Shown here one piece after another: positions 43,802-61,539 of a DNA stretch of 64,000 nucleotides (position 1 is its first letter; every line of letters begins with the position of its first letter). The position numbers and the translations under genes are program-made. The notes below the pieces were generated by a model. That model saw only the letters and a list, made by a program, of their open reading frames with translations, was not told the DNA's origin and did no database searches. The DNA comes from Aquiflexum lacus (GTDB taxonomy: Bacteria > Bacteroidota > Bacteroidia > Cytophagales > Cyclobacteriaceae), in NCBI RefSeq assembly GCF_015476655.1, contig NZ_JABFHF010000002.1, positions 248,001 to 312,000 on the forward strand, written 5' to 3'.

Positions 43802-44416
43802 TTATAAAATCTCATCGTTCCAAAGCTGTTCCAGAAATCGCTTCCAGGGAATAACTGAAATTTCACCGATTTTTCGCTCTAAAGGATCATCACTCACAAC
43901 GATCAGCCTTTTTACCGCGTATTCTTCTGCAAAGCTTTTTAAACCTTTTAGGTGCCGCAACTGAACATTAGATGTTCCTTTGACCTCAACGGCTACTTCA
44001 TGATCCCCTAAAATAAAATCCACTTCTAATTGGGAAGTTGTTCTCCAATATGAAATAGCATAGTCTTTTTCCGAATATTTACTGTGTGCATATAGTTCAT
44101 GGTAAATGAAATGCTCAAATGCATGTCCAAAAGACTCGCTTCCTGCTTCAATTCTCCCTCTTTTCATTAATTTATTGGCAATCCCAATATCAAAATAATA
44201 AAACTTGGGTGACAGAATAACCCTGCGTTTTGGTTTTTTCTGGAAGGAAGGAACAAAGCGACCGATTAATGTATCTTGTAAGATTTGAAAGTATTCCTTA
44301 ACAGTGTTATTGCTTACACCACACTCAGAAGAGATATTGGAATAATTCACCATTTCACCATTTGAAAATGCGGCAGCCTCCAAAAATTGCGAAAAAGCAT
44401 TGATATTTCTAATCTT
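43802..44416 (-). pseudogene. AAA_14/DUF4143 ATPase remnant, N-terminal half deleted
   Basis: About 204 codons are left. The DUF4143 C-terminal part is clear: INAFSQFLEAAAFSNGEMVNYSN, SNNTVKEYFQILQDTLIGRF, PKFYYFDIGIANKLMKRG and the PD-D/ExK-like EVDFILGDHEVAVEVKG. No Walker A or B motif precedes it; a TAG stands at 44419-44417 just upstream of KIRNIN. The promoter-side palindrome at 44464-44500 survives, so the ATPase domain was removed between them. A full-length relative is at 60406. Confidence 0.8.
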
Positions 44417-44463
44417 CTAAAACTTGCTTTCTAAGGAACCACCATACAATTTACTTACAATTA

Positions 44464-44863: not shown

Positions 44864-46033
44864 TTAAGGTTTATTGAACAAATCAATGTAGGCTTGAAAG
44901 GCGAAGATTCTGTTCCTCTTGAATCCTGTGAGTTCTTCTAGGATACCCAATTCAATGAGGTCCTTGATCAAGCGGTTCGCTGTCGAGGCGTGTACGTCAA
45001 GGATTTCCGCAACCTTTGCACTGTCTATGATCGGGTTTCCATAGAGGAATTTTAAGATTTTCTTTGCATCCTGTTGACGCTTGCCAAGTTCAAGAATTTG
45101 TGTGAACTCGATTTTTTCCCTCAGTTTCAAGATTTGCTGGAATGTGCTTATACTGGCCTCTGCGGTTTCGATCACACCGATCAGGAAGAAGCTGAGCCAA
45201 GAGTTGATGTCGTCTTTTTCACGGACACGCATCAGGTTGTCATAATAATCCCTCCTGTTTTTTTCAAAGAAATCTGACAGATACAAAACAGGGCGCTTTA
45301 AAAGCCCTTTGTCAAGTAGGTACAAAGTGATCAGTAATCTCCCTATTCTTCCGTTCCCATCAAGAAATGGATGGATAGTTTCAAACTGATAATGAATCAA
45401 TGCAATCTTCACTAAGTGGGGTACATGGGTAGGGCTTTCACTGATATCTGCATGGATAAACTGCTCTAAATCACCCATTAGTTCAGAAATTTCAGTGTGT
45501 GTAGGAGGAACAAATATGGCATTTTTCAGACTTGGTCCAATCCAATTCTGACTGGTTCTAAGCTCTCCCGGTAGTTTTTCTTTCCCGCGAGTACCTTTTA
45601 ATAGTGTTGAATGGGTCTGTTTGATCAATCGTGTTGAGATGGGGAGTTTTTCCATTTCCCCAATGGCTTGGTTCATGGCTTCAATATAGCTCCGCACCTC
45701 TTTCCAGTCCTCTCTACGCTCTGGATCAAGGTCTTGCTCCTTGATCAAAGCCTCTTGAAAAGATGTTTGGGTACCTTCAATTTTGCTGGAAACAGTAGCC
45801 TCCTTAGTGATGTGCATCATGATGAAGAAGTCAATATCAGGAATCAGCTCAGAAAATGCATCAAGTTTGCCCAAGCTTCTATCAGCCTGACTAAGTAAAT
45901 TTGCCAGCTTTGGATCTGAAATTACCCATTCGTAATTGATTTTTTCTGGACTGAAGCTTTGGTATTCCGTTCGCTTGATCCAGGTACCAGCTTTGAAGTC
46001 TTTGAAGTCTTTGGTTTTCATGTCCCCCTGCAT
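44864..46033 (-). CDS. Fic-domain protein with C-terminal winged helix (Fic 1)
   Basis: A 389-residue class II Fic enzyme. The inhibitory helix motif is SSKIEGT near residue 80, and the catalytic loop starts at His221 in HPFLDGNGRIGR. The N-terminal part has the Fic_N pattern. The C-terminal 80 residues form a winged helix (AKVAEILDVHASTANRLIKDLIELGILEEL), so the protein may bind DNA. Fic enzymes usually transfer AMP to a target protein hydroxyl. A half-site array fills the region right upstream, which suggests autoregulation. Confidence 0.92.
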   Translation of the reverse strand: MQGDMKTKDFKDFKAGTWIKRTEYQSFSPEKINYEWVISDPKLANLLSQADRSLGKLDAFSELIPDIDFFIMMHITKEATVSSKIEGTQTSFQEALIKEQDLDPERREDWKEVRSYIEAMNQAIGEMEKLPISTRLIKQTHSTLLKGTRGKEKLPGELRTSQNWIGPSLKNAIFVPPTHTEISELMGDLEQFIHADISESPTHVPHLVKIALIHYQFETIHPFLDGNGRIGRLLITLYLLDKGLLKRPVLYLSDFFEKNRRDYYDNLMRVREKDDINSWLSFFLIGVIETAEASISTFQQILKLREKIEFTQILELGKRQQDAKKILKFLYGNPIIDSAKVAEILDVHASTANRLIKDLIELGILEELTGFKRNRIFAFQAYIDLFNKP

Positions 46034-48633: not shown

Positions 48634-49674
48634 CTATTTTATCGTGTAACTCACACTTCGGCCCCTACCTTGTTTTTCTATCAATCCTTTATTGATTAAC
48701 CCTGAAAGCATACGTTTTACGGTAGGTAATGGTATCGCCAATTTTTCGGAAATTCCGCCCGACTTTATGTTTGGGCGATTTTGGATAATCGTAAAGATTG
48801 ATTTTTCCTTGGGTGAAAGTTGGGTTTCCACTCCGCTTTTATTCAATTTAATCAAAAGTTGAGATTGAATATTTGACAGGCAACTCAAAAAGAACTGCAT
48901 CCAAACGGAAACATTTTCTTTAGGGCGTTGTGCCTGACAACTTCTTAGGGCCTGATAGTATTCGTTTTTCCGGTTTTCAATTTCGTGTTCAAAACTTACG
49001 TATTGTATCCATTTATATCCGTTTTTGAGTAATAATAGCGTTGAAATTAAACGACTTAACCTTCCATTACCGTCTTGGAAAGGGTGGACACTCAAAAAAT
49101 CATAAACGAAAGCTGCTATTCTAATTAAGGGGTGAATTTCCGTTTCTGAATTATACCAATTGAGCAACTCTCTTATGGCATAATCGGTAGCAATTCCCGG
49201 CTCGGTTGTTTGAAAGATCATTTGCCGTGTCCCGACAGGAAATGAAACTTCAACTGCGTTGCTATGTTTATTATAATTCCCTTTATGCCATTGGTCTTTG
49301 GCACTATATTTCATCAAACTATTGTGTAAACTTTTGATGTGGCTTTCTGTAAGATCGATGTTTTCGAAAGATTCCGAAATCAAATCCAAGACTTCAAAAT
49401 AACCGACTACTTCCTGTGAATCTCTGTCGGTAAGTTTTGTTATGTCAATTTTTTGGAGTAAAACGTCTACCTCTTCATCGCTCATTTTGTTGCCTTCAAT
49501 CCGGTTTGAAGCTCCAACGCTTCGCACCGTAGCAATACTTTTCAACTCTTTGAGGCTTTGTCCTTCTTTTCGTTCAATTGCTGTCCAATTTGCATCAAAG
49601 CGGTCTATTTCACTGATTAAGTTGATCAGCTTCCAATCAATATTCAGTTTAAAATTATATACTTCGTTATCCAT
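48634..49674 (-). CDS. Fic-domain protein with C-terminal HTH (Fic 2)
   Basis: A 346-residue class II Fic enzyme. The inhibitory motif is SNRIEGN near residue 56 and the catalytic loop starts at His197 in HPFQDGNGRLSR. The last 65 residues are a winged helix (SPKEKSIFTIIQNRPNIKSGGISEKLAIPLPTVKRMLSGLINKGLIEK). ATG 49674 is the first base of the first 10-bp repeat of the array upstream. The HTH and array together suggest that the protein controls its own expression. Confidence 0.92.
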   Translation of the reverse strand: MDNEVYNFKLNIDWKLINLISEIDRFDANWTAIERKEGQSLKELKSIATVRSVGASNRIEGNKMSDEEVDVLLQKIDITKLTDRDSQEVVGYFEVLDLISESFENIDLTESHIKSLHNSLMKYSAKDQWHKGNYNKHSNAVEVSFPVGTRQMIFQTTEPGIATDYAIRELLNWYNSETEIHPLIRIAAFVYDFLSVHPFQDGNGRLSRLISTLLLLKNGYKWIQYVSFEHEIENRKNEYYQALRSCQAQRPKENVSVWMQFFLSCLSNIQSQLLIKLNKSGVETQLSPKEKSIFTIIQNRPNIKSGGISEKLAIPLPTVKRMLSGLINKGLIEKQGRGRSVSYTIK

Positions 49675-60156: not shown

Positions 60157-60207
60157 CCATTGATATTGGCTTCATTTAAATCCTAATTCAATCTTAAGAA
60201 ACCTATA

Positions 60208-60389
60208 ATCGAGAAATTACATGTAATATTTCGATCATAATCGAGAAATAGCATAAAATATCTCGATTGTAATCGAAGAATAATATGTAATATCTCGATC
60301 GTAGTCGAAAAATTACATAATTTTTATCGATCATAATCGAAAATAAACATAATTTTTATCGATCGTAATCGAGAAATTGCATATTTTTG
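60208..60389. repeat. 32-bp-period array of 28-bp palindromic units upstream of the ATPase
   Basis: Five complete 28-bp units begin at 60208, 60240, 60272, 60304 and 60336, each bounded by (A/G)TCGA at the left and TCGAT at the right and separated by 4 bases (cata, tgta, cgta, cata, cgta). A sixth unit at 60368 has a normal left half, but its right half is changed to TATTTTTG (60382-60389), an exact -7 box. The units are AT-rich and nearly self-complementary. Period 32 bp is three helical turns. The array ends 16 bases before the ATPase start. Confidence 0.8.
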
Positions 60390-60405: not shown

Positions 60406-61539
60406 ATGATTGTTCGTGAGGCAGAAAAATTAATAACAAAAAAGCTATATCAAGGCAAAATTCTGCTTATCTCAGGACCGAGGCAGGTTGGCAAAACCAC
60501 ACTGATGAGACAATTAGCAGCTTCTTTGAATAAAGAACCATTATGGCTTAACTGTGACAATCCCGATGACAGAATTGATCTTGAAAATGCAACATTAAGT
60601 TCATTAAAAGCGCTAGTGGGTTCATATACCTTAGTGATGATAGATGAAGCCCAACGGGTTAAAAACATTGGGCTGACCTTGAAATTATTGGCAGATAATT
60701 TTCCCCAAGTCCAGATAATCGCATCGGGTTCTTCTTCACTTGAATTGGCAAATACAATCAATGAACCTTTGACGGGCAGAAAAAGAGAGTTGAGGTTATT
60801 TCCCCTTTCTACCGGGGAATTGGGTCATCACACATCTTTACGGGAAGAAAAAAGATTATTGGAAAATCGTTTGGTATATGGATTTTATCCCGAAGTCATA
60901 AACAACCCCTCAGATGCGGAGGAAATTTTAAGGGAACTTACCAGCAGTTATCTTTACAAGGATATTTTGACATTAGACCAAGTAAGAAAACCTGTAATAC
61001 TTCAAAAATTACTGATGGCTTTAGCCCTTCAGGTTGGGTCTGAGGTGACATTCAATGAACTTGGAAATACCATAGGGATAGACAAAGAAACTGCCGAAAA
61101 ATATATAGACCTTTTGGAAAAGAGTTATGTGATTTTCAAATTGAATTCCTTTAGCAGGAATTTGAGGAGGGAGATCAAAAGGGGCCGAAAAATCTATTTC
61201 TGGGACAATGGTGTACGCAATGCATTGATCAATAATTTCAATGGGGTTTCATTAAGAAGTGATGTGGGGGCTTTGTGGGAGAATTTTATCATCAGCGAAA
61301 GGATGAAGTATTTACATTACAGTGGAATTAATGCTAACGTGTTTTTTTGGAGGACAACTACAGGTAAGGAATTGGATTGGTTGGAAGAACGAGGCGGTAT
61401 AATTCATACCTATGAAGCAAAATGGAACCCAAAGAGAAGGAGTAATTTTCCATTGGGATTTCAGGATGCTTATCCCAATTCCACCTTCACTTTGGTCAAT
61501 CCTGAAAACTACCTTTCGATATTGTCTGAAGAAAGTTGA
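60406..61539 (+). CDS. AAA_14/DUF4143 ATPase, full length
   Basis: A 377-residue protein. The P-loop is GPRQVGKTT (residues 24-32), Walker B is LVMIDEAQ (Asp80, Glu81), and the sensor region is IASGSSSLELAN. After about residue 190 follow a winged helix (TFNELGNTIGIDKETAEKYIDLLEKSYVIFKL) and the DUF4143 nuclease-like part (KIYFWDNGVRNALI, FFWRTTTGKELDWLEERGG, EAKW). The E/D-xK arrangement (ELDWLE...EAKW) suggests a PD-(D/E)xK fold. Function is unknown in general; roles in DNA handling are suspected. Its own promoter lies in the 32-bp repeat array, so it probably regulates itself. Confidence 0.9.
   Translation: MIVREAEKLITKKLYQGKILLISGPRQVGKTTLMRQLAASLNKEPLWLNCDNPDDRIDLENATLSSLKALVGSYTLVMIDEAQRVKNIGLTLKLLADNFPQVQIIASGSSSLELANTINEPLTGRKRELRLFPLSTGELGHHTSLREEKRLLENRLVYGFYPEVINNPSDAEEILRELTSSYLYKDILTLDQVRKPVILQKLLMALALQVGSEVTFNELGNTIGIDKETAEKYIDLLEKSYVIFKLNSFSRNLRREIKRGRKIYFWDNGVRNALINNFNGVSLRSDVGALWENFIISERMKYLHYSGINANVFFWRTTTGKELDWLEERGGIIHTYEAKWNPKRRSNFPLGFQDAYPNSTFTLVNPENYLSILSEES

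Follow-up and report, generated by a model that had tools for sequence, protein, structure and literature searches.

What reads an array of palindromic repeats that runs straight into the promoter of a gene in Aquiflexum lacus, and could the reader be the product of that very gene? The array lies in a stretch of 64,000 nucleotides (contig NZ_JABFHF010000002.1, positions 248,001 to 312,000), hereafter the window, to which coordinates refer unless stated otherwise. It comprises five complete repeats (60206-60365, strand not assigned) and a sixth half unit that continues into the promoter (60366-60389, forward strand). The units start at 60206, 60238, 60270, 60302, 60334 and 60366, a spacing of exactly 32 bp. 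At this lag 108 of 140 bases are identical, against a maximum of 73 at any lag between 20 and 59 in 300 Markov shuffles, and the array is also detected by TRF. Five complete units at an exact 32-bp period had been noted in a preliminary description of this DNA, and the count and the period are both borne out. As also described there, the sixth unit retains its left half but terminates in TATTTTTG (60382-60389, forward strand), which fits TAnnTTTG, the motif that we take to be the Bacteroidota -7 box; 16 bp separate its end from the ATG of an ATPase gene at 60406.

The 28-bp units had been called palindromes. When each was compared with its own reverse complement, 12, 10, 9, 8 and 10 of 14 pairs matched in units 1 to 5, a good to modest symmetry, and 4 of 14 in unit 6. 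Since the palindromes stand in tandem, every period contains two dyads 16 bp apart, dyad B at the centre of the 28-bp unit and dyad A at the centre of the 4-bp 'spacer'. The first dyad A, a predicted winged-helix site, consists of TTTCGATCA followed by TAATCGAGA (60229-60246, strand not assigned, centre 60237/60238). Further dyads A recur every 32 bp at about 60269/70, 60301/02, 60333/34 and 60365/66, the five centres lying at -168, -136, -104, -72 and -40 relative to the ATG. The spacers had been described as almost alternating between CATA and CGTA, which was taken to point to recent amplification; in order they are CATA, TGTA, CGTA, CATA and CGTA, and strict alternation fails. Recent amplification likewise lacks support because, among four 76-bp stretches of the array, the other three are 75-79% identical to the first, although units 4 and 5 share their right halves.

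The open reading frame directly after the array (60406-61539, forward strand, 377 aa) is intact and, as previously stated, encodes both an AAA_14 domain (104.7 bits, cut-off 27) and a DUF4143 domain (136.4 bits, cut-off 28.1). Its product belongs to PDC-S01, a single-gene phage-defence candidate of the AAA_14/DUF4143 type in PADLOC, by a profile match over the whole protein (model PDLC04789, residues 1-373, 1e-161). Walker A (GPRQVGKTT) occupies residues 24-32 (60475-60501, forward strand). In an AlphaFold2 model made with 48 sequences (mean pLDDT 89.7), the AAA+ domain is accompanied by helices 216-223 and 227-239 and a strand at 243-248, which we read as a winged helix (residues 216-248; 61051-61149, forward strand). 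Its putative recognition helix, assigned from the model and from the covariation reported below, spans residues 227-239, with D226 and E228. The C-terminal domain contains strands 311-317, 322-329 and 332-338, and the core of the predicted DUF4143 nuclease fold (residues 287-340; 61264-61425, forward strand) includes E292, E322, D324, E337 and K339. In the model, residues 318-321 make the turn that links the strand up to 317 with the one bearing E322 and D324. Residues 318 and 319 thereby sit in a hairpin adjoining the DUF4143 active site, and the hairpin turn (residues 317-320; 61354-61365, forward strand) covaries with bases at dyad B.

Fold searches gave the best structural likeness to two archaeal AAA+ ATPases, PABY2304 (2qen, Z 16.0) and SSO1545 (2fna, Z 15.8), over about 250 residues, but at 19-20% identity and in an alignment that stops near residue 276, leaving the nuclease-fold domain uncovered. 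As regards the STAND/MNS-type ATPases, a clade marked by its AAA+ plus winged-helix fold, the Z of about 16 for 2qen and 2fna expresses similarity of fold and not placement in that clade. Among the matches listed after these two are CED-4/NLR assemblies and the filament-forming Avs5. The matches listed were mostly AAA+ ATPases, which barely cover residues 290-377; another was Cdn1 (8z4i, TM 0.25), a CRISPR nuclease of PD-(D/E)XK type. Across 174 genes, the Walker residues K30 and D80 are kept in all 174, E322 in 174, E292, D324 and K339 in 173 each and E337 in 172, so the residues that would make up a PD-(D/E)XK active site (D...E-x-K) are present and kept in 172-174 of the 174. The PD-(D/E)XK nuclease superfamily is named in one earlier report (PMC12988326).

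At the place of the array a sister species has 361 bp, compared with 2117 bp in the window that hold the array, the ATPase gene and a gene for a C92 peptidase. A search of 169 other loci (flanks of 1.5 kb for 29 and of 3 kb for 140, shorter at contig ends) detected neither the upstream oxidoreductase gene nor the C92 gene in the neighbourhood of the ATPase; two of these loci contained a match to other genes of the window. Together, gene and array resemble a self-contained unit, placed among different neighbours in different genomes. The empty site in the sister species, the changing neighbours of the relatives and the retained nuclease residues would all suit an array that is a recombination or insertion site, or the end of a mobile element, and thus a target of the nuclease. 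However, the exact core TCGATNNTAATCGA occurs at six sites in the genome, four within the array and two as scattered singles, which leaves none at the 3' end of the gene, and the phase between array and promoter also speaks against such a site, which we regard as very unlikely. Core sites with one mismatch exist elsewhere in the genome, one of them in the array of a paralog (L003). A single perfect TTTCGATTATAATCGAAA, like dyad A of the window, stands upstream of an unrelated ORF in the same genome (L294, C110:102583-102596), possibly as a second target or by chance.

Comparable arrays stand before many related genes. The A. lacus genome holds 17 DUF4143 matches, 15 of them above the cut-off. 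By reading, repeats or paired palindromes were recognised shortly before the ATG in 13 of the 17 (L001-L007, L010-L014 and L016), in letters that differ from gene to gene. Among the remaining four, only a remnant is left of L008, with one palindrome; L009 is cut short by an early in-frame stop and has a stretch repeated twice upstream; L015 is a fragment; and the upstream region of L017, when read, showed no repeats. A search with the ATPase protein against 148 genomes of the family found a match at 1e-60 in 54. From 106 loci (17 own, 89 others), five having dropped out for want of a tblastn match and one for want of a start codon, we obtained 100 genes with a start. In the 150 bp before the ATG, the best lag was 32 in 87 of these 100 genes and in 8 of 226 control genes, which were neighbours from the same loci plus genes of the window. 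Self-similarity reached at least 30 of 45 bases before 67 of the 100 ATPase genes, at lag 32 in 63 of them, a level that was attained by 4 of the 226 controls and by one shuffle in 1000. The letters of the arrays differ from gene to gene despite the common period. The upstream comparison that the preliminary description had proposed thus came out with 32-bp arrays before most relatives, and not with arrays absent upstream of all close orthologs.

The period is not confined to the family. In 80 named loci from Bacteroidota, KSB1, Caldiserica, Treponema, Chlorobiota and others, the best lag was 32 in 63 and 33 in 5; 38 loci scored at least 30, 33 of them at lag 32, three at lag 33 and two at other lags, one of the latter two being an artefact of masked bases. 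Wider DUF4143 subfamilies were sampled at 81 loci of ten other genomes and the own genome, five without a usable gene, giving 76 genes, about fifteen of which also belong to the earlier sets. Here z was at least 3 in 37 of 76 genes versus 12 of 226 controls, about half lacking a tandem signal by this measure, and the periods were 32/33, 22/23 and 40. Some members of about 450 aa have 33-bp direct repeats, seen before the ATG of L012, L241 (434 aa) and L249 as non-palindromic copies, which hints at a different alignment along the DNA.

This sampling of array occurrence covered bacterial loci. Matches were present in 513 plasmid and 12 phage records, and seven plasmid loci and one phage-labelled locus were read for upstream arrays. 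The phage-labelled locus has palindromes at lag 32, a Novosphingobium plasmid locus a weak 22-bp period and a Lactobacillus plasmid locus short palindromes and a lag of 39; no clear array was seen in the Thermus, Acinetobacter and Dinoroseobacter loci. The plasmid relatives L280 and L281 (Runella, Moraxella) each possess a single 39-bp palindrome, touching the ATG or 8 bp before it. Among viral contigs, 78 stretches matched a pattern, but the one relative encoded there was only partial, which made them useless as a test set.

Array-like signals also occur before other genes. The strongest among the controls was at L078, position 4317 (forward strand), with a score of 35 at lag 32. One of the four controls that reached a score of 30 is a gene of the window with a SoFic match (44864-46033, reverse strand, 1.6e-121), preceded, up to about 46130, by AT-rich imperfect repeats and palindromes with GCGAAAAT and TTTTTCGC. 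A second SoFic match, a Fic-domain gene (48634-49674, reverse strand, 4.9e-42), scored 29; several direct copies resembling CGTATCAAA extend upstream of it to about 49780 and reach its ATG; this may be another single-gene defence candidate that follows a similar own-operator logic. The window further contains a DUF4143 gene remnant with one in-frame stop (43802-44425, reverse strand), whose first remaining ATG has a perfect 29-bp palindrome right ahead of it.

The arrays also hold a regular position relative to the promoter. An exact TAnnTTTG was found within 110 bp of the ATG in 51 of the 100 ATPase genes and in 36 of 226 controls, and a relaxed form in 79 of 100 and 71 of 226, respectively. 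In a sample of 154 genes, the distance between box and dyad A could be expressed as a phase for the 92 with a box, defined by motif match only. This phase is 18-23 of 32 for 82 of the 92, and the box in the window has the usual value. The phase and the operator are not fully independent, because the T-rich edge of the half-site can supply part of the box. Across the 154 genes two full dyads are the rule (99 genes), with three in 32, one in 15, four in 6 and five in 2, and the last full dyad A precedes the ATG by a median of 41 bp. The predicted operator overlaps or adjoins its own core promoter, and the fixed phase between array and -7 box suggests autorepression, a sign of regulation that we infer from geometry alone. 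The same arrangement bears on whether the repeats, being palindromic, might act as hairpins in the leader of the transcript. We reject such an RNA element as having a negligible chance of being correct, because the array is upstream of the -7 box and a transcript from that promoter would exclude it; the residue-base code described next also fits DNA.

Residues of the ATPase covary with the letters of its array. We compared operator similarity with protein similarity in segments of 15 residues, corrected for overall similarity. In set 2 (49 non-redundant genes), segment 225-239, the recognition helix, ranked first of 363 with a corrected p of 0.0033, the floor of 300 permutations. In set 1 alone (62 genes) it came 28th of 363 (p 0.013; 0.21 after correction); with the sets combined, segments around 222-240 lead the scan. 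In an earlier scan, two patches of the ATPase domain, 37-75 and 133-153, were strong candidate readers in set 1 and were dropped when set 2 did not replicate them; the whole profiles of the two sets were uncorrelated (rho -0.10).

For single residues, half-sites were extracted without protein information. Among 2763 residue-base pairs in 90 genes of less than 75% identity, residue 228 and base 6, counted from dyad A, stood at the top with an excess mutual information of 0.99 bit, and the pair was first in each of two sets (48 and 42 genes). Residue 228 sits in the predicted recognition helix of the winged helix, and its identity goes with that of the base: E with C in 23 of 24 genes, Q with C in 11 of 14, K with G in 16 of 16, H with G in 4 of 4 and N with T in 14 of 16. 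Aspartate at 226 goes with G at base 5 in 66 of 66. Extension of the half-site to 16 bases pointed to a second reader: the next pairs replicated in both sets joined residue 318 to base 13 and residue 319 to base 16, bases that lie at dyad B. For residue 318 the correspondence is H to A (22/24), Y to A (10/14), K to C (11/12), Q to G (5/5) and T to T (15/22); for 319 it is Q to T (25/28), A to A (10/13), R to G (5/5) and E to C (4/4), D being mixed (C in 7/15) and T split (6 T, 6 A).

Contrasts between nearest neighbours (87 disjoint pairs) ranked 228 highest among the 377 residues for base 6 (p 2e-8, against 1.6e-4 for the runner-up); residue 318 led for base 13, as did 319 for base 16, where residue 177 was nearly as strong. 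For base 5, residues 126, 150, 32 and 181 outrank 226, so residue 226 may partly mark clades. The gene in the window obeys the correspondence at 226 (G5) and 228 (C6); its T318 predicts T13, where the actual base is A and the rule fails, and for its T319 there is no rule. Statistically, then, residues 228, 319, 318 and probably 226 of an ATPase predict bases of its own array, and dyad B appears to be read by the nuclease-fold domain. Paralogs of one genome differ in the 5-bp core in 56 of 57 pairs. Active divergence of their operators was considered and found no support, as such differences are no commoner than in comparisons across genomes at matched identity (p 0.23).

The residue-to-base rule was fixed beforehand and then applied to new genes. 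A search of 296 genomes of the phylum gave 57 rows, and further loci were fetched; 47 rows were used, five own, two in set 1 and three not fetched being left out, and the removal of eight of the 47 loci as redundant left 39 genes. In these the rule was right for 81 of 101 bases, whereas with operators permuted among the genes 5000 times it scored 42.6 on average and never more than 60. Residue 226 succeeded in 16 of 18 cases, 228 in 29 of 32, 319 in 15 of 18 and 318, the weakest, in 21 of 33 (p 0.0014, a score equalled by about six of 5000 permutations); several divergent loci of this blind set have half-sites of doubtful register. The preliminary description had surmised that the ATPase itself, by means of its winged helix, reads the same-face repeats at the core promoter, and both the covariation and the blind test support this, the evidence that the gene product reads its own operator being statistical only. 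A separate transcription factor is often what recognises tandem palindromic operators at promoters, and the array might have been the operator of another host regulator, with the ATPase only the regulated gene. Against this, the array letters differ between ATPase genes within a genome, the array accompanies the gene amid other neighbours, and residues of the downstream ATPase predict the letters, also in the blind set. Because the blind test succeeded, we consider a host regulator very unlikely.

Very probably, the ATPase recognises its own promoter through two of its parts, the winged helix and the nuclease-fold domain, with each subunit covering 16 bp. A pair of winged helices would come together at dyad A and a pair of DUF4143 nuclease-fold domains at dyad B, and with these alternating contacts the protein could form a chain along the array. 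The bound ATPase would block RNA polymerase and keep its own level low, autorepression being deduced from the fixed phase of array and -7 box. On the strength of these sequence comparisons we regard it as highly likely that the array is the private operator of the downstream ATPase, the chain and autorepression being proposals built on this. The ATPase might instead bind the array chiefly for self-activation, storage or sensing, the chain serving as a signalling platform and not for repression. The likeness to CED-4/NLR assemblies and filament-forming Avs5 points that way, as do up to five full dyads, more than simple repression needs; the fixed phase of the -7 box and the last dyad A at its median distance from the ATG fit repression, and the chain that a platform presupposes is itself only inferred. 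We consider this alternative rather improbable, and continue to favour a private, autorepressive operator. An invasion event, such as a change of ATP state, DNA damage or a phage protein, could conceivably release the chain, upon which expression would rise and the ATPase-nuclease be freed to act. It is a tentative and rather improbable extension that PDC-S01 members in general polymerise on their own arrays through such contacts, the array being both operator and safety catch, a DNA 'antitoxin' for the nuclease, whose disruption by an invader would raise expression and arm the nuclease, with a short amino-acid-to-base code and two readers in one polypeptide.

Parts of this arrangement have precedents. 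Orc1/Cdc6 initiators bind repeated sites with two protein parts. The archaeal Orc1/Cdc6 on origin DNA (2qby; Z 12.3, rmsd 9.2) likewise combines AAA+ with a winged helix, but in the window ATPase the predicted second reader is a nuclease-fold domain and the site its own promoter. Autoregulated antitoxins and the controller proteins of restriction systems are small modules that repress their own promoters via palindromes; unlike them, the window ATPase unites ATPase, winged helix and nuclease fold and is predicted to read a phased array. The mycobacterial regulator IniR similarly joins an SSO1545-like ATPase domain to a DNA-binding domain and binds a promoter, but it has 818 aa and other domains and acts on iniBAC; the available text describes no array at its own promoter, and the terms 'palindrom' and 'inverted repeat' do not occur in its main text (PMC5760070). 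In the accessible part of a Thermus thermophilus study, the DUF4143 ATPase gene TT_P0211 was 6.6-fold up with plasmid DNA in an Argonaute-bearing strain, a rise that its authors linked to Argonaute (PMC4406477); it fits an inducible gene and says nothing on mechanism.

PDC-S01 is described as the most frequent individual locus in the rumen genomes of one study (PMC13356809) and as among the most frequent uncharacterised defence candidates (PMC12988326), and the available portions of both reports make no mention of a promoter array, DNA recognition or autoregulation. Such arrays are also undescribed in the titles and abstract openings of the openly accessible journal literature, subscription papers and preprints aside, on DUF4143, COG1373, PDC-S01, PF13635 and PF13173. 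It would be unusual for a nuclease-fold domain to take part in reading its own promoter, which raises the question of why it does not cut there. For this family, the array would provide each ATPase with a cognate DNA ligand and testable predictions of specificity, a promoter read-out of what releases the ATPase, and a simple sequence sign by which intact units may be found.
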